DNA of 64,000 bases from an uncultured Sunxiuqinia sp. (GTDB taxonomy: Bacteria > Bacteroidota > Bacteroidia > Bacteroidales > Prolixibacteraceae). Location of the stretch: assembly GCF_947495665.1 (NCBI RefSeq), contig NZ_CANLZV010000002.1, positions 1 through 64,000 on the forward strand, in the 5' to 3' direction. Shown here piece after piece: positions 30,176 through 52,076 of the stretch; the first letter of the stretch is position 1, and every line of letters begins with the position of its first letter. Below the pieces are notes generated by a model, which was not told the DNA's origin, did not search any database, and saw only the letters and a program-made list of their open reading frames with translations. The position numbers and the translations under genes are program-made.

Positions 30176-31378
30176 ATGCATATCAAATCGAACAATCTCA
30201 TTCGCCTGATGCTGTTAGTGCTGTTAGCCACCCAAATAAGCCTGGCATCGGCTGGTACTGGTAACCAAACAACTCCGGAAGAGCCGGTTGAAACCCAGTC
30301 GGTCTTTCGTACCAAACCCTTTCTTCAAAATCCGATTGGTGGAGGAATTACCGTATCGTGGTTTACCCATGTGCCCACACATGGATGGGTGGAATTTGGC
30401 ATGGACGAAAGCCTGGGCACTAAAATGGAAACCCTGATTGCGGGACAGGTTGTGGCCAACGTGAAACAGCACAAGGTGCGGCTGAACGGACTTCAGCCGG
30501 GACAAACCTACTATTACCGGGTGTGCTCCAGGGAGGTGCTGACTTATGGAGCCTACAAAAAGGAATTCGGAGAGGTGGCCTACAGCGAGACCTACCAGTT
30601 TACACTGCCCGATACGAAGAGCCCCGATTTCACCGCCATTATTTTTAACGATCTGCACCAGAAGAAGCAAACCCTGCAGCAACTGATGACACAGCTTGAA
30701 GGGGTGAACTACGATTTTGTGATTTACAACGGCGACTGCATTGATGACCCGCGCAGTGAAGATCAGGTGCTTAATTTCCTGACCTTTTCCAATGAGCAGG
30801 TTAATGCGGCCGAAAAGCCTGTGTTTTACATCCGTGGAAATCACGAAATACGAGGTGCCTATTCGGTGGAATTCAACCAGCTTTTTGATTATGTAGGGGG
30901 GAAAACCTATGGTGCTTTTAACTGGGGCGATACCCGTTTTGTGATGCTGGATTGCGGCGAGGACAAACCCGATTCGCATCCGGTTTATTATGGCCTGAAC
31001 AGTTTTGAGCAATTGCGAAACGATCAGTTGGATTTTCTTCGCCATGAAACCAAGAGTAAGGCCTTTAAAAAGGCTGCCAAGCGGGTGCTGATTCACCACA
31101 TTCCCTTGTATGGCATGGATGAGAAATACTACCTGCCATGTGCTGAGCTGTGGGGCGAAACCTTAAACAAAGGCCGGTTTGCCGTTGCCATAAACGGGCA
31201 TACCCACAGTTCTGCCTACCAAGAAGCGGAAAGCCTGGGCAATGCTTATCCGGTAGCGATTGGCGGTGGCTACAGTGCCGACAATGCCACGGTGATGGTG
31301 CTGAGCAAAACCGGCAATACGTTGCACCTGAAAATGATTGGCTACGATGGTACTGTATTGGGCGATTTTTATTTCTAA
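30176..31378 (+). CDS. Secreted metallophosphoesterase with fibronectin-like N-terminal domain
   Basis: About 400 residues from the ATG at 30176, chosen for the signal peptide (MHIKSNNLIRLML..., ending about SLASA); an in-frame TTG 24 codons upstream has no support. Residues about 35-140 form a purple acid phosphatase-like N-terminal domain (GITVSWFTHVPTHGWVEFG). The calcineurin-like catalytic domain has NDLHQ, NGDCID, RGNHE, IHHIP and NGHTHS, which supply the dinuclear metal ligands. It acts outside the cytoplasm on an unknown phosphoester. A second, unrelated-looking phosphoesterase lies at 46083-47078. Confidence 0.9.
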   Translation: MHIKSNNLIRLMLLVLLATQISLASAGTGNQTTPEEPVETQSVFRTKPFLQNPIGGGITVSWFTHVPTHGWVEFGMDESLGTKMETLIAGQVVANVKQHKVRLNGLQPGQTYYYRVCSREVLTYGAYKKEFGEVAYSETYQFTLPDTKSPDFTAIIFNDLHQKKQTLQQLMTQLEGVNYDFVIYNGDCIDDPRSEDQVLNFLTFSNEQVNAAEKPVFYIRGNHEIRGAYSVEFNQLFDYVGGKTYGAFNWGDTRFVMLDCGEDKPDSHPVYYGLNSFEQLRNDQLDFLRHETKSKAFKKAAKRVLIHHIPLYGMDEKYYLPCAELWGETLNKGRFAVAINGHTHSSAYQEAESLGNAYPVAIGGGYSADNATVMVLSKTGNTLHLKMIGYDGTVLGDFYF

Positions 31379-31435
31379 GCGGAGATGCCAATTGGGCCGG
31401 AGATAAATACTTCTTGCACCAGATTCGGTCTGAAT

Positions 31436-31466
31436 TTTCAAATTCGGGATTTAAGTTGTATCATTG
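31436..31466 (+). promoter_or_regulatory. Putative promoter of the leader peptide-OsmC unit
   Basis: TTTC (31436-31439), exactly 19 bases, then TATCATTG (31459-31466), one mismatch in each box. The start of transcription would fall about 30 bases before the leader peptide ATG. Confidence 0.45.
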
Positions 31467-31500
31467 CAGGCTATTAATCGCACAGCGTAAAAAAGAATTA

Positions 31501-31590
31501 ATGAATTTATCATTTTCCATCATCAACATGACAACTATGTGTTGCTGTATGTTTTTCAAACATGTGGAGGGTGATGCTGTGCTTCTATAA
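31501..31590 (+). CDS. Cysteine-rich leader peptide of a predicted attenuator
   Basis: A 29-codon frame, ATG to TAA, with three consecutive cysteine codons flanked by methionines (MCCCM, codons 13-17, bases 31537-31551). It lies 34 bases ahead of a strong intrinsic terminator and 86 bases before the OsmC-family gene. Codons 22-24 (31564-31572, GTGGAGGGT) can pair along their whole length with the 5' arm of that terminator (31625-31633, GCCCTTCAC), counting two G-U pairs. This is the arrangement of ribosome-mediated attenuation: a ribosome paused at the Cys codons would leave the antiterminator free, while a ribosome reaching the stop would cover it. Cys-run leader peptides before sulfur genes are known in other bacteria; here the assignment is my inference. 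Confidence 0.6.
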   Translation: MNLSFSIINMTTMCCCMFFKHVEGDAVLL

Positions 31591-31623
31591 ATTATAGAAT
31601 ACTTAAATATAAAAATAGGTTTC

Positions 31624-31659
31624 AGCCCTTCACAGTTTTGTGAAGGGCTTTTTTTTTAC
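31624..31659 (+). terminator. Intrinsic terminator / attenuator before the OsmC gene
   Basis: AGCCCTTCAC pairs with GTGAAGGGCT (loop AGTTTT) and is followed by eight or nine T residues, ending 18 bases before the OsmC start codon. It lies 245 bases from the preceding phosphoesterase gene, which is far for that gene's terminator. Its 5' arm can alternatively pair with 31564-31572 in the leader ORF. Confidence 0.85.
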
Positions 31660-31676
31660 TAAAAATTCAAAAAAGA

Positions 31677-32129
31677 ATGGCAGATTTAAATTTTAAAATT
31701 GAAGGTGAAGCTCAAACAGGAGCGCGATTTGTTGCCGGAGCACGGCAGTTTACGATTGTAATTGATGAGCCCCCAGCGCTTGGAGGAGATGACCTTGGAG
31801 CAAACCCTGTTGAATACCTTTTGGCAAGTTATGCCGGATGTATCAATGTTGTTGCCCATCTTACAGCGAAAGAACTGGGAATTCAGGTTGAAAAATTGGG
31901 TATTGAGGTCAGTGGTAACCTGAACCCTGCCCGCCTGATGGGGCAGGCAGATGCCGAGCGTGCCGGATTTAAACAAATTGATGTCAAGTTTTCGCCCATT
32001 ACCGATGCCGGGCCCGAGCAAGTCAATCAATGGATTGCGCTAATCAAAGATCGTTGTCCAATTAATGATAACCTGACCAATACGACTCCTTTGACCTTTA
32101 ATCTGGTTTCGGAGGAAGTAAGTGTTTAA
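31677..32129 (+). CDS. OsmC-family protein
   Basis: 150 residues of the OsmC/Ohr fold. The two reactive cysteines are visible: SYAGCIN (about 58-64) and KDRCPIND (about 119-126). The segment GANPVEYLLASYAGC is typical of the YhfA-like OsmC subgroup rather than of Ohr. Members reduce organic hydroperoxides or act on thiol compounds, and many in Bacteroidota are found with sulfur metabolism genes. The preceding Cys-codon leader peptide and terminator suggest regulation by charged cysteinyl-tRNA, which would link the gene to cysteine supply. The gene appears monocistronic. Confidence 0.9.
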   Translation: MADLNFKIEGEAQTGARFVAGARQFTIVIDEPPALGGDDLGANPVEYLLASYAGCINVVAHLTAKELGIQVEKLGIEVSGNLNPARLMGQADAERAGFKQIDVKFSPITDAGPEQVNQWIALIKDRCPINDNLTNTTPLTFNLVSEEVSV

Positions 32130-32140
32130 GTAGTTTTAAG

Positions 32141-32273
32141 GAAGCTGTCTGGAAAGTCACTGGAGTAGGAAAAACCGTCATTGCGAGTGAAACGAAGCAA
32201 TCTGCTATTTAAAAGATTGCTTCAGTCGTTCCTCCTTCGCAATGACGAAGAACCATACTTTTTAGACAGCTTC
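32141..32273. repeat. REP/MITE-like palindromic element (133 bp)
   Basis: Two nested inverted repeats: outer GAAGCTGTCT with AGACAGCTTC (32141-32150 and 32264-32273), inner CGTCATTGCGAG with a CGCAATGACG end (32176 onward and 32238-32247), plus GAAGCAATCT with AGATTGCTTC near the centre. The inner CGTCATTGCGAG motif is widespread in Bacteroidota intergenic repeats. No gene is inside. Confidence 0.8.
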
Positions 32274-32345
32274 ATTGCTTTTTCATTTTATCCCAGCACC
32301 CGAAAGGATGCGCGCAGGAGCAGTGTCAGATCAAATAAGCCATTG

Positions 32346-33650
32346 CTAGGACGATGCTGCTGGCTGCTCGATGTTGACGGAAGCTTCTGCATGATTGTTT
32401 GCTTCCGGGCTACCTGCCGCCTGTTGCAGGCCCAGGTAACAAGCCAGACGATCGGCGCAAGCTCCTTGTTTTTTATTTGCTTTAAGCATCCAGGAATAGT
32501 TTAACTGCAACAAACCGCCACATCCAACTTGATTAAAAAGTTCTCTTAGTTGCTGATGCTCTTTAATATCGGATGCAATAAACGTGTGGAGACGATCAAT
32601 TCCAAGGTAAGCCTTATCCAGTTTGGCCAGGCCGGCCAGCTCTTGAAGCTTTTTCCCTTCGGGTGTTCCGTTGTTGGTTACAAAAAGGAAGGTTCGAACC
32701 ACCAGCTTATCGCCAATGATATCAGCTTTCAGATAACCCAGCCGGATGTCGCCCTCAGTCATTGGGAACAGAAAGCTGTTGGGTTTACCTGCCGGAAGCG
32801 GTTCTTGCAGCAAGGCCGTAACGATATACAAATACCCTAAATCAACGAAAGGTTTTCCGAGCCGTTCTTCCATACGCACCAAAACATGCTTTTGCATAAA
32901 TACCTTTAGCGGAAACTTTTGCATCATTCCTTTCAGTCCCAGTTTTTCGGGAGTGATTGTAAGAGGAGTAAATGTTTGTTGCGTATTTAAACAGACCTGG
33001 AATACGGTGCGCCGGTGTCCGCCAATTTCCAGCAACTCGGTTTCCACCTCTTTTTGTTCCACCACATAGTTGTTGTAGAAAGCCGATAAATCGAGGGGGG
33101 AGCGATCATCCTCCAGCTTTTCTTTAACAAAACGGGTCGTACTGGTTGTGAAATCGGAAAACAACCAGGCTAGCGTCTCTAACCGGCGTTCAACCGTATT
33201 GAATACTTTTAGGCGTTGTGCATCAAACTCCTCTTCTTCAAAAATAGGGAAACACGCATAAAACTGTTCGCCAACATCGGGCTCCTGCCGCGCCACATTG
33301 CGCCAAAATAAGAACAGGGTTTCGGCATAGATTGAAAAATCATACAAGCTCATCTTGATTTGGTGCTTGTCCAGCTCAACCCAGGTGTGCTGCAATAAGC
33401 GAGTTAAGTTGCTATTCAGCATCTGTAAGGCAGCTTTCGATGCCCGCTTCCCTTCGGTTGGGTTAATGACCTTAAAAGGACGAATGCGGGTGTGATAAAT
33501 CATCAGGCGCCTTCTTTTATTGAGCAAATCAAAGGCCGAATCATCGCCCAGTAGCGCCATAATTTGTTTCAGCTTTTTAAAAAACTCGTTTTGGCGGTGC
33601 TGACGCTCTTGTTTGTTTTGAATGGCATTGTTTTTCTTTTTCCGTTTCAT
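32346..33650 (-). CDS. Unrecognised 434-residue protein
   Basis: 434 residues with a very basic start (MKRKKKNN), no signal peptide and no transmembrane helix. Predicted mixed helical content with aromatic and charged stretches such as FFKKLKQIMALLGDDS, LFWRNVARQEPDVGEQFY and MEERLGKPFVDLGYLYIV. The C-terminus (about 405-434) is low-complexity and Ala/Glu-rich. I do not recognise a domain. Base composition in a sampled line (48% G+C) matches the genome, so it was not recently acquired from an AT-rich source. It lies between a REP-like element and an inverted-repeat spacer, alone on its strand. Confidence 0.7.
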   Translation of the reverse strand: MKRKKKNNAIQNKQERQHRQNEFFKKLKQIMALLGDDSAFDLLNKRRRLMIYHTRIRPFKVINPTEGKRASKAALQMLNSNLTRLLQHTWVELDKHQIKMSLYDFSIYAETLFLFWRNVARQEPDVGEQFYACFPIFEEEEFDAQRLKVFNTVERRLETLAWLFSDFTTSTTRFVKEKLEDDRSPLDLSAFYNNYVVEQKEVETELLEIGGHRRTVFQVCLNTQQTFTPLTITPEKLGLKGMMQKFPLKVFMQKHVLVRMEERLGKPFVDLGYLYIVTALLQEPLPAGKPNSFLFPMTEGDIRLGYLKADIIGDKLVVRTFLFVTNNGTPEGKKLQELAGLAKLDKAYLGIDRLHTFIASDIKEHQQLRELFNQVGCGGLLQLNYSWMLKANKKQGACADRLACYLGLQQAAGSPEANNHAEASVNIEQPAASS

Positions 33651-49395: not shown

Positions 49396-51210
49396 TTAAC
49401 GAATTTGTTTTTCCAGTTTTCCCATCAAGGCTGCTGCCCTTTGGTAAAGGTCTTCCTTGGTCCCTTCAACCGCACTTGGCGCATAACGGGCATATTCACA
49501 GGTATCGACAATCTGAATAAATTCGGAAATGATTTCTGACTGAACTTGTCGTTTTTTCAACGATTCTGTTGCATTTTCCCGATTTAAATCAGCTGCCGGA
49601 ATGCTCAGCTTATCGCTTAAGTAACCCCAGAAAGCTTTCAGAACGGCTTCGTAAAAGGCCTCGTCATGGTTCTGTTTCAAATGAGTGGCAGCGGCTTTCA
49701 AGCGTTTGCGTGCAATTTTATTAGCCTTTTTGTTTTTAACCAGTTGAACGTTGGCATTTTCTTTTAGCTTTTTTCGGTACACCAAGGCAACCATGGCAAA
49801 AAGCAACAAAGCACCAAGATAAATCAGGTAGAAAGCCAGACTTCCAAAGAAGGACGATTCCTTGGTTTTTAGCTTGTACTGCCCTTGTTTGATGAAACGA
49901 ATGTCCTTACCAATAAAGCGCACATCTTCTTTCGAATACGCGCTGGTTACTGTCGTATTCTGGTCGTCGCTTCCTTTTTCAACCTGCAGCACAAACTCGT
50001 CCGATTGCTGGTAGCTGTACTTTCCGGTGGAAGGATTGAACGAGGCAAACTTTATGGGCGGAATGGTGTATTCGCCGGCAAATCGAGGAATAAACAAGTA
50101 TTCAAATGTTTTAGTGCCCGTAAGTCCATTGGTTGAAGCTTTTAGTTTTTCATCAGTTTTAGGATCGTAAACTTCAAAATCGGCCGGAAATTCCACCTTG
50201 GGAGCATCAATCAGGCGCAGGTTTCCGTTTCCGGAAATCGTAATTTTCAAGGTGGCAGCTTCGTTTGATTTGAGTTGCTGCCGGTCAACCGAGGCCCTGA
50301 AGTTCAGTTTCCCAACTCCGCCGGCAAAGCTGGCAGGTGGCGATGGCAGCTCTTTTACGTTGACGCTAACCGGGTCGCTCACCACCTTGGCTTGAAGGGT
50401 ACGGTAGTTGTCGAAAAAATCATCGAAAAAGCTGCGCTGTTGCCGAATACGCTGACGAACCAGACAGGTAATTTCAAAGGGATCGATGGTTATTTTTCCG
50501 GTTTGTTGCGGGAAAAGAATGGTCTTCTTCAGCACACCCACCTGGTAAATTTTATTGTCGAACACTTCGCGGGTGAAGCTGATTTGATTGGGAATATCAA
50601 TTTCCTGAGTCCAGAATCCAGCGTAGGAGGGGAGTTTTACATCATCGAAACTGGTGATGGGCACATCCGGAGCCACATAGATTTTTACGGTGGCAATAAT
50701 TTGTTCTCCCTTAAAAACTCGGCGTTTATCCAGATCTACTTTGACAAACAAATCTTCTTTGCCAATGTTGGTGGCTGAAGATGCAGGCTGCTGTTGCTGC
50801 TGCCCTCCTGAAGAAGTTTGTGGCTTTTGGCCTTTTACCACCTGAATTTTGAGTTCGTTGGACTCGTATACCTTGCCATCAACCTGAATGGAGGCCGGGC
50901 GAATGGTAAAAGTACCTTCCTCCTTGGCGCGCAAAATATAAATGTAAGAAAAGCTGACCGTTTGCGTCGTTTTTCCATTGATGATCTGGATGCTGGAACT
51001 TTGCGATGTGGAGGGCCCCATGAGTACATCAAAACTGGAGATTTCGGGTAACTGCAGGTTTGAGCCACGTTCATTCAAGGTAAAGGATAAACGAAACTGC
51101 TCGCCCACAGAAACCACATTGGGCCCCGACATGCTAAACTTTACGCTGTCGGCATCGGCAAAAAAGGCCGGAATAAGTAACAATAGTGTGACTATAATTT
51201 TTTTAATCAT
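49396..51210 (-). CDS. batD: BatD: large membrane-anchored periplasmic protein
   Basis: 604 residues. After a signal peptide (1-19, ending FADA) come several Ig-like beta domains (about 25-420) with KETIL-like strands and a Gln-rich linker near 135-145. One transmembrane helix (about 443-463) and a basic cytoplasmic tail follow. BatD proteins are the largest, most divergent members of the operon and are thought to assemble with BatA-C at the membrane. A TACTTTTG box just upstream (51244-51251) may give this gene an additional internal promoter. Confidence 0.9.
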   Translation of the reverse strand: MIKKIIVTLLLLIPAFFADADSVKFSMSGPNVVSVGEQFRLSFTLNERGSNLQLPEISSFDVLMGPSTSQSSSIQIINGKTTQTVSFSYIYILRAKEEGTFTIRPASIQVDGKVYESNELKIQVVKGQKPQTSSGGQQQQQPASSATNIGKEDLFVKVDLDKRRVFKGEQIIATVKIYVAPDVPITSFDDVKLPSYAGFWTQEIDIPNQISFTREVFDNKIYQVGVLKKTILFPQQTGKITIDPFEITCLVRQRIRQQRSFFDDFFDNYRTLQAKVVSDPVSVNVKELPSPPASFAGGVGKLNFRASVDRQQLKSNEAATLKITISGNGNLRLIDAPKVEFPADFEVYDPKTDEKLKASTNGLTGTKTFEYLFIPRFAGEYTIPPIKFASFNPSTGKYSYQQSDEFVLQVEKGSDDQNTTVTSAYSKEDVRFIGKDIRFIKQGQYKLKTKESSFFGSLAFYLIYLGALLLFAMVALVYRKKLKENANVQLVKNKKANKIARKRLKAAATHLKQNHDEAFYEAVLKAFWGYLSDKLSIPAADLNRENATESLKKRQVQSEIISEFIQIVDTCEYARYAPSAVEGTKEDLYQRAAALMGKLEKQIR

Positions 51211-51243
51211 TGTGCTTAATTATGCTTTGACTAAAATTTGGTG

Positions 51244-51251
51244 CAAAAGTA
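51244..51251 (-). promoter_or_regulatory. Internal -7 box (TACTTTTG) before batD
   Basis: Exact TAnnTTTG box about 33 bases before the batD start, inside the operon; the -33 element is poor. Confidence 0.35.
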
Positions 51252-51263
51252 AGAAATTATGAA

Positions 51264-52076
51264 CTACCAGTCTTTGTCGGTTTTGCGTTGCTGCGCTTTG
51301 GCGGCCTTCGCTTTTTTTACTTTCTCTTGAATTTTTTCTTCATCGTTTTGCAGAGCCTGCAACAACCGTTCCGCATTTTCCTTTGAAATTTTTTGCTGCT
51401 GAGGTTGCTGTTGCTGCTGGTTTTGTTTGTTCTGGTCCTGATTCTGCTTTTGCTGGTCTTTATTTTGATCCTTGTTCTGATCTTTGTTTTGATCTTGTTG
51501 GTCTTTGTTTTGCTGTTGATCCTTATTCTGATCCTGCTGATCCTTGTTTTGGTCTTTATTCTGATCCTGGTTTTGTTGTTGCTGCTGTTGCTGCTGTTCC
51601 TGCTGTTTTTTCAGGTTCATGGCGTACACCAGGTTGTATTTGCTTTCCAGGTCATCCGGATTGTTGCGAAGCGCTTTTTTGTATGCCTCAATGCTTTCAT
51701 CCAGTTTGTTTTGCATCATCATCGAGTTACCCAGGTTGTGGAAAGCCCGGGCTTTTTCATACTTATCTTCGCTTTTCTCGGCAATCTCTTCAAACTTGGA
51801 AGTTGCTTCTTCAAACTTCATTTGCTTATACAAGGCGTCGCCCAGGTTGAAGTTCCATTTCAAATCATCCGGTCGCTTGTCCAGGGCTTTGCGGTAGGCC
51901 GTTTCAGCCTGGCTAAATGCCACCGTGTCAATTTGGGTGGTGTCCTGCAAGGCCTGTTCAAAGATTTCGTTTCCTTGCCGTACGAACTTCCGTTCGTTTT
52001 GGGCCTGCGAACTGATGCCCAGCAAGAGCATAAAGATTAAAAGTCCTGTATGTAAGATCACTTGTTTCTTCATCAT
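51264..52076 (-). CDS. batC: BatC: TPR protein with Gln/Asn/Asp/Lys-rich tail
   Basis: 270 residues. A signal peptide or anchor (1-25) precedes TPR repeats (about 40-155). Residues about 158-230 are a low-complexity tract of repeated (Q)DQNKD, followed by a charged C-terminus. The tract is encoded by near-repeats of an 18-base motif (51410-51610). The first base set overlaps the batB stop by four bases (ATGA). BatC is usually a periplasmic TPR scaffold of the Bat complex; the repeated tract is likely disordered and its length probably varies between strains. Confidence 0.88.
   Translation of the reverse strand: MMKKQVILHTGLLIFMLLLGISSQAQNERKFVRQGNEIFEQALQDTTQIDTVAFSQAETAYRKALDKRPDDLKWNFNLGDALYKQMKFEEATSKFEEIAEKSEDKYEKARAFHNLGNSMMMQNKLDESIEAYKKALRNNPDDLESKYNLVYAMNLKKQQEQQQQQQQQNQDQNKDQNKDQQDQNKDQQQNKDQQDQNKDQNKDQNKDQQKQNQDQNKQNQQQQQPQQQKISKENAERLLQALQNDEEKIQEKVKKAKAAKAQQRKTDKDW
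51410..51610 (-). repeat. Low-complexity coding repeat in batC
   Basis: Degenerate repeats of codons for Gln, Asn, Asp and Lys, encoding poly-(Q/DQNKD); it may be prone to slippage. Confidence 0.8.

Follow-up and report, generated by a model that had tools for sequence, protein, structure and literature searches.

The window (the whole stretch of DNA analyzed here, 64,000 nucleotides long) holds an OsmC gene preceded by a short open reading frame (ORF) with a run of Cys codons, and the question raised by this locus is whether that ORF controls the gene and, if so, what it senses. We think it very probable that the leader is a ribosome-mediated transcription attenuator of the trp/his type, sensing charged tRNA-Cys. 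A possible promoter box, a 29-codon ORF with the antiterminator strand inside it, an intrinsic terminator and OsmC follow one another in that order (Table 1). The three consecutive Cys codons flanked by Met, the terminator behind the ORF and the OsmC start all lie where a preliminary description of this DNA had placed them. Its claim that part of the ORF pairs completely with the 5′ arm of the terminator holds base for base: GTGGAGGGT (31564-31572) pairs in full with GCCCTTCAC, two G-U pairs included.

Table 1. Elements of the leader and the gene it precedes, in window coordinates.
Feature	Positions	Strand	Description
Possible -7 promoter box	31459..31466	+	TATCATTG, one mismatch to TAnnTTTG
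Leader ORF, 29 codons + stop	31501..31590	+	ATG 31501, TAA 31588-31590; peptide MNLSFSIINMTTMCCCMFFKHVEGDAVLL
Region 1	31510..31519	+	Pairs with 31565-31574; proposed to sequester region 2 when the ribosome is out of the way
Regulatory Cys codons TGT TGC TGT	31540..31548	+	Codons 14-16, with ATG on either side
Region 2, antiterminator strand	31563..31574	+	31563-31572 pairs with region 3; 31565-31574 pairs with region 1
Region 3, terminator 5′ arm and partner of region 2	31624..31634	+	Arm AGCCCTTCAC, 31624-31633
Region 4	31640..31657	+	Terminator 3′ arm GTGAAGGGCT, 31640-31649, then eight-T tract, 31650-31657
OsmC gene (controlled gene), 150 aa	31677..32129	+	Pfam OsmC, E 2e-17

When folded, the leader has a stability z of -4.21, and none of 200 shuffles was equally stable. 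An NCBIfam search gave the leader peptide no match at E 1, and the OsmC product scored 74.3 bits against the OsmC_like_Se model, under its cut-off of 95. The -7 promoter box of Bacteroidota is TAnnTTTG. Within 90 nt 5′ of the leader ATG, an exact copy is found in 12 of 18 OsmC leaders and 4 of 41 cysK leaders (both sets are described below), and in 6.6% of the same spans in shuffles of all 59. The exact boxes of the OsmC leaders are candidates that sit 38-54 nt before the ATG and would thus leave a 5′ UTR; transcription of the leader probably starts from such boxes. Just 5′ of the leader ORF, after the possible promoter, five loci (L015, L018, L028, L029 and L030) also share a short recurring inverted repeat resembling ATCCTA...TAGGAT, perhaps a 5′ end hairpin.

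A search of 140 genomes of the family Prolixibacteraceae returned 20 full-length OsmC matches at 64% identity or more, and at all 20 loci (L012-L030, plus L196) we found a leader ORF with clustered Cys codons, an antiterminator and a terminator; leaders with a Cys-Met-Cys-Ser-Cys form were recognized by eye and then by script. The nearest named relative found, in a search that may omit the window’s own genome, was Sunxiuqinia elliptica (Prolixibacteraceae, Marinilabiliales, Bacteroidota), whose OsmC is 92% identical (L008). We aligned 18 distinct leaders, leaving out before any counts L021 and L008 (upstream regions the same as those of L019 and L013, respectively), L041 (a broken OsmC, in genome G132) and an OsmC fragment in genome G123. 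The ORF is open in all 18, the distance from its ATG to the antiterminator is always a multiple of 3, and the antiterminator begins 17 or 20 nt past the last Cys codon, counted from that codon’s first base. The preliminary description had made its reading depend on the Cys codons being kept among relatives, and they are, every cluster holding 3 or 4 Cys; across the whole ORFs, TGT is used 54 times and TGC 18 times. The peptide pattern Met-Cys-Met-Cys-Cys-Cys has 15 matches in the 140 family genomes and none in a reversed control, and 14 of the 15 precede OsmC or cysK genes (five were inspected at the locus and the other ten assigned by coordinates).

These results bear on a rival reading in which the hairpin merely terminates transcription of the upstream gene and the Cys-containing ORF is a chance frame. 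A same-strand gene does end at 31378, and a simple scan for terminators, taken by itself, gave 2 sites in the region where 3.2 are expected, no more than chance would. The hairpin, however, lies 245 nt past the end of that gene and stands close to OsmC, about 20 nt ahead of it; all 20 orthologs keep the ORF, the Cys cluster and both alternative helices, and an independent leader set precedes cysK. We hold this reading to be extremely improbable.

More distant OsmC genes lack the leader, a point against the attenuator reading. Twelve loci with OsmC homologs of about 48-58% identity (L009, L010 and L031-L040) are without it, as is one with a homolog of 36% identity (L011); L009 and L033 have in common an ORF ending CACCRMYR, with the rest of the leader absent. 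A strict, exact pattern of the OsmC-type antiterminator and terminator was run on 393 genomes of the order, 5 of them drawn from the family; it matched 2 family genomes and none of the 388 outside. At L010 (OsmC homolog of 48% identity), an ORF unrelated to the leader, MFNNNTNTVSSAKSPMACMCCCCCMM, lies about 270 nt before the gene; five Cys follow one another in its stretch MACMCCCCCMM, and only a weak hairpin comes after it.

The leader RNA can form three mutually exclusive helices. In helix 2:3 (the antiterminator), 98.3% of 180 cells in the 18-leader alignment are paired, against at most 58.9% in slid controls, and one G-C is replaced by A-U, a compensatory change, in three leaders; the alternative pairing is thus kept in relatives, the second point on which the preliminary description had relied. 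Only one pair of this helix is changed on both sides (207 of 500 shuffles reach that), and its 5 further pair types are reached by all 500. Helix 3:4 (the terminator) is paired in 100% of 180 cells, with no excess over shuffles. Helix 1:2, which would sequester the antiterminator strand, is paired in 95.2% of 166 cells (seven leaders are gapped at its two innermost pairs), compared with at most 67.5% in slid controls. Three of its pairs differ on both sides, a number that 36 of 500 shuffles attain, and its covariation is 0.280, as against 0.175 in shuffles (none of 500 reaching it) and at most 0.116 when slid. Since the leaders are mutually related, the shuffles overstate significance. In duplex energies relative to shuffled segments, helix 2:3 of the OsmC leaders has a mean z of -2.75 (p<=0.05 in 15/18) and helix 1:2 a mean of -1.68, individually significant in only 9/18; in the cysK leaders the means are -2.2 for helix 2:3, significant in only 21/40, and -2.31 for helix 1:2, significant in 29/40.

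In the attenuators of the trp and his operons, codons for the end product stand in a row within a short ORF, the antiterminator and terminator helices exclude each other, and a further helix on the 5′ side can sequester the antiterminator. Helix 1:2, which has no place in the preliminary description, appears from the alignments to complete this classical design, and the OsmC leader resembles trp and his in all three respects: the codon run in a short ORF, the exclusive helices and the sequestering 5′ helix. In trp the regulatory codons lie inside region 1 and the stop codon precedes region 2, whereas here region 1 is upstream and region 2 downstream of the Cys codons, the ORF continues through the antiterminator strand, and the residue proposed to be sensed is Cys. 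In terms of the features by which attenuators are recognized, the OsmC leader has a codon run, an intrinsic terminator before the first gene, an antiterminator just past the regulatory codons and a 5′ helix; in the cysK set the target, too, belongs to cysteine metabolism.

We propose that the switch would work as follows. The leader is probably translated, with a ribosome moving along the 29 codons as RNA polymerase moves ahead. With ample Cys-tRNA, the ribosome would clear the three Cys codons and depart, and region 1 would then pair with region 2; with region 2 sequestered, region 3 would pair with region 4 and transcription would end before OsmC. With Cys-tRNA scarce, the ribosome would stall on codons 14-16, between regions 1 and 2, and hold them apart, so that region 2 could pair with region 3, no terminator would form and OsmC would be transcribed. 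The preliminary description had instead explained the off state by a ribosome at the stop codon covering the antiterminator. That detail does not fit: region 2 ends 12-27 nt before the leader stop codon in the 18 OsmC leaders (15 nt in the window), which, given the usual ribosome footprint, places it behind rather than under a ribosome at the stop codon. The off state is better explained by region 1 pairing with region 2 once the ribosome has moved on. The broader trp/his-type reading in that description gains from the conservation of the leader and from the independent cysK set, and fell short in overlooking the 5′ helix that the off state needs.

A model of ribosome-masked folding supports the on state. 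The edge of a ribosome lies 13 nt past the first base of the A-site codon, and we therefore removed the RNA up to that point and read out, in transcripts ending before the 3′ arm, how often the terminator’s 5′ arm pairs upstream. For the 18 OsmC leaders the mean rises from 0.67 without a ribosome to 0.87 with one at the last Cys codon (17/18 rise), in line with the earlier suggestion that a ribosome paused on the Cys codons leaves the antiterminator free; for 41 cysK leaders it rises from 0.54 to 0.71 (37/41 rise). Stalls further upstream or one codon downstream give similar values (0.82-0.87 for OsmC, 0.66-0.72 for cysK), and stalls two, three, four and six codons downstream of the last Cys codon give 0.74, 0.50, 0.44 and 0.23 for OsmC and 0.54, 0.30, 0.20 and 0.19 for cysK. 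Pairing drops from two codons downstream on, so that in both sets the last stall site that still permits it lies one codon past the end of the Cys cluster, and the cluster is thus predicted to stand at the downstream limit of the stall sites that leave region 2 free. The model gives no strong off state, since even ribosome-free RNA pairs the arm upstream (0.67 and 0.54). Stalling at the Cys codons and a response of the switch to cysteine are predictions of this reading.

The same kind of switch appears not to be special to OsmC. Searching the window’s own genome for Met-Cys-Cys-Cys gave 7 matches (2 in the reversed control), one of them the OsmC leader. Another, MNFSFPNMCMCCCYRVTRGRYV, precedes cysK (TIGR01139, 405.6 bits, cut-off 350.95) with its own antiterminator and terminator; this attenuator (L002, G000:C1:283125-283142, minus strand) has a different terminator sequence, of the GGCCTTCC type. 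By eye, the remaining five places showed no such arrangement. Four consecutive Cys codons had 64 matches in this genome (13 in the reversed control), and the 60 loci inspected, which took in every place except one, held no further leader. Eight of the 64 matches fall in the window at 50789-51597, a stretch with several runs of TGC/TGT triplets.

A cysK-like match is present in 125 of the 140 family genomes, and from these we took 50 upstream regions, comprising the 30 best matches and 20 from further down the list. An automatic test for a terminator plus an ORF with at least 2 clustered Cys was passed by 41, one of them falsely: the “leader” of L109, which is still among the 41 used for folding, is the tail of the upstream gene. 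Clustered Cys codons and a terminator thus precede cysK in 40 of the 50 regions, with 2 Cys in six clusters and 3 to 5 in the other 34. The ten without a complete leader include L107 and L110, where the Cys ORF is absent and the terminator still present, and seven with no called terminator (L136, L137, L139, L143, L146, L147 and L149), of which L139, L146 and L147 still have a Cys ORF. At L107, L109 and L110 the leader ORF is apparently missing, and the upstream gene reaches almost to the surviving cysK terminator. Runs of at least 3 consecutive Cys occur in 32 of the 50 regions of 250 nt; 20 shuffled sets contained none. No other residue recurs in such runs: the next is Leu, with 2/50, and runs of at least 3 Met occur in 1/50. 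A gapped pattern of a Cys run and an A tract matched 13 of 61 relatives and led to six leader loci, all before cysK (L045, L047, L048, L049, L053 and L054); nine other loci matching this pattern in those relatives were judged by eye not to be leaders. The case for attenuation is one of sequence analysis, drawing on the parts of the leader, their conservation, covariation of both alternative helices, the modeled position of the Cys cluster and the same design before cysK.

The cysK set also helps in judging whether some other signal, a riboswitch ligand or an RNA-binding protein, might work the same RNA switch, with the ORF incidental. The RNA can indeed form alternative helices; but no Rfam family reached its gathering score among the 13 matches (up to E 1) in window positions 31000-32400, and what is conserved is the Cys codons and the switch strands, the cysK leaders varying elsewhere and keeping the Cys cluster. 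We consider this highly improbable.

What OsmC might have to do with cysteine is suggested by its neighbors. At 5 of the 18 leader loci (L014, L015, L018, L020 and L030) a second cysK gene, of 53-62% identity, lies closely 3′ of OsmC on the same strand, and at 4 others (L016, L019, L022 and L028) OsmC is followed by a sulfhydrylase-like gene, which from its sequence we take to resemble O-acetylhomoserine sulfhydrylase. At L027, what by eye looks like the beginning of a cysK gene follows OsmC, and in one genome an OsmC-type leader directly precedes a cysK paralog (L205). At the other loci of the 18, the window included, neither cysK nor a sulfhydrylase-like gene was seen within the 1.5 kb inspected. 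OsmC is not itself, to our knowledge, a cysteine enzyme, and OsmC proteins are often linked to peroxide defense. The simplest reading of the gene order is that the OsmC of these loci belongs to cysteine supply.

The peroxide link could be taken to favor a different sensor, the nascent peptide itself: Met-Cys-Met-Cys-Cys-Cys-Met might bind a metal such as copper, or be oxidized, and so stall or free the ribosome. Some Cys-containing, copper-responsive leaders in proteobacteria have been proposed to act through the peptide, and this stretch of the OsmC leader is both Cys- and Met-rich and well conserved. Ser and Arg variants among the OsmC leaders alter the motif, however, and the cysK peptides are very diverse (e.g. 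TDCCCCCS, NINCCCYC and MNPCCCCF), yet constant in the number of Cys and their position before the antiterminator. Since the proposed targets are, moreover, apparently cysteine genes, a peptide sensor seems quite improbable to us. It is unlikely, to a lesser degree, that the leaders sense sulfur amino acids in general, with the adjacent Met codons adding sensitivity to Met-tRNA. All 18 OsmC leaders, and many cysK leaders, do have Met codons beside the Cys cluster, and the four sulfhydrylase-like genes would suit such a role, but several cysK leaders have no Met adjoining the cluster (L134, L138, L140 and L145) and runs of Met are as rare as noted above. Sensing of Cys-tRNA remains the reading we prefer.

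Outside the family, leaders of this kind are scattered. In a survey of the phylum, 24 of 118 genomes had a cysK match at E<=1e-100. Among 24 phylum cysK loci besides that of the window’s own genome, L165 has a Cys-run leader and a terminator; L152, L155 and L160 have Cys-rich ORFs with no called terminator; L159 has a Cys-rich ORF and a called hairpin too near its Cys codons; and the other 19 have no Cys-rich ORF within 350 nt. A Cys-run pattern matched 73 of 392 phylum genomes, mostly by chance judging by the matched letters. Of eleven such loci inspected (L064, L065 and L068 among them), seven were not leaders and four were plausible: Cys-run leader ORFs with a hairpin before a DUF4395 gene (L092), a gene with nitrite/sulfite reductase domains (L093) and rhodanese-like genes (L094 and L095), the last description resting on a match of 60.2 bits by a partial sequence to a mercaptopyruvate sulfurtransferase model with a cut-off of 250. 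In masked folding, upstream pairing showed no gain on stalling in L092 (0.86 to 0.64), L093 (0.80 to 0.80) or L094 (0.62 to 0.50), where the mask may cut into the antiterminator, and a gain in L095 (0.20 to 0.77) and L165 (0.41 to 0.79). These single or paired cases are weaker than the family set, the folding model favoring only some of them. That attenuation at Cys codons is a common way to run the cysteine regulon of Bacteroidota, perhaps with several origins, is a tentative idea that we rate as possible, if somewhat short of probable; it would take in cysK and the osmC-cysK2 or osmC-sulfhydrylase operons in the family and, elsewhere, nitrite/sulfite-reductase-like and rhodanese-like genes and another cysK. 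If true, this branch of OsmC would serve the supply of cysteine or sulfur, and not general peroxide defense.

The kind of control is a known one; the target OsmC is unexpected, and has a sister set before cysK. One close published likeness is the uORFC-8-2 motif before cysS (Cys-tRNA synthetase) in Rhodobacterales, which belong to another phylum. It is a predicted Cys-tRNA sensor whose two tandem Cys codons are usually codons 14 and 15 of the leader peptide (14-16 here), with alternative stems and a terminal U run, as far as the available text describes it (PMC8632094). Our leaders differ in standing before OsmC or cysK in Prolixibacteraceae, and the comparison of these two predictions is one of features alone. 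Leaderless poly-cysteine short ORFs of mycobacteria are described as conferring cysteine-responsive attenuation on downstream genes (Canestrari et al., 2020, as cited in PMC9031893 and PMC9094748 and in the reference list of PMC13236596); in the accessible part of a 2005 survey, Cys-codon attenuation was suggested for Actinobacteria, with no conserved terminator hairpins and with Rho proposed (PMC1262725). These ORFs share with the OsmC leader a run of adjacent Cys codons in a short ORF upstream of the gene; the OsmC leader, unlike them as so described, has an intrinsic terminator and a conserved antiterminator. Transcriptome studies of Flavobacterium psychrophilum and of Bacteroides thetaiotaomicron treat leader-peptide attenuation in general and, in their accessible passages, name no Cys leader, which their supplements may list (PMC9723704, PMC7366714), the available portions of PMC4833913, PMC2965389 and PMC4448311 hold nothing on Cys leaders, and in the open-access literature, as far as its accessible text goes, we found no report of a Cys attenuator in Bacteroidota or before OsmC. 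For cysteine synthesis, the leaders would provide a concrete control point, a putative cis-acting Cys-tRNA sensor before cysK at 40 of 50 sampled loci in one family, and the same kind of switch, often in the same operon as cysteine synthase, would tie a poorly understood branch of OsmC to cysteine supply.

Finally, a palindromic element with the look of a dispersed repeat, CGTCATTGCGAG...CGCAATGACG, lies 3′ of OsmC in the window (32176-32247) and also follows OsmC at L013.
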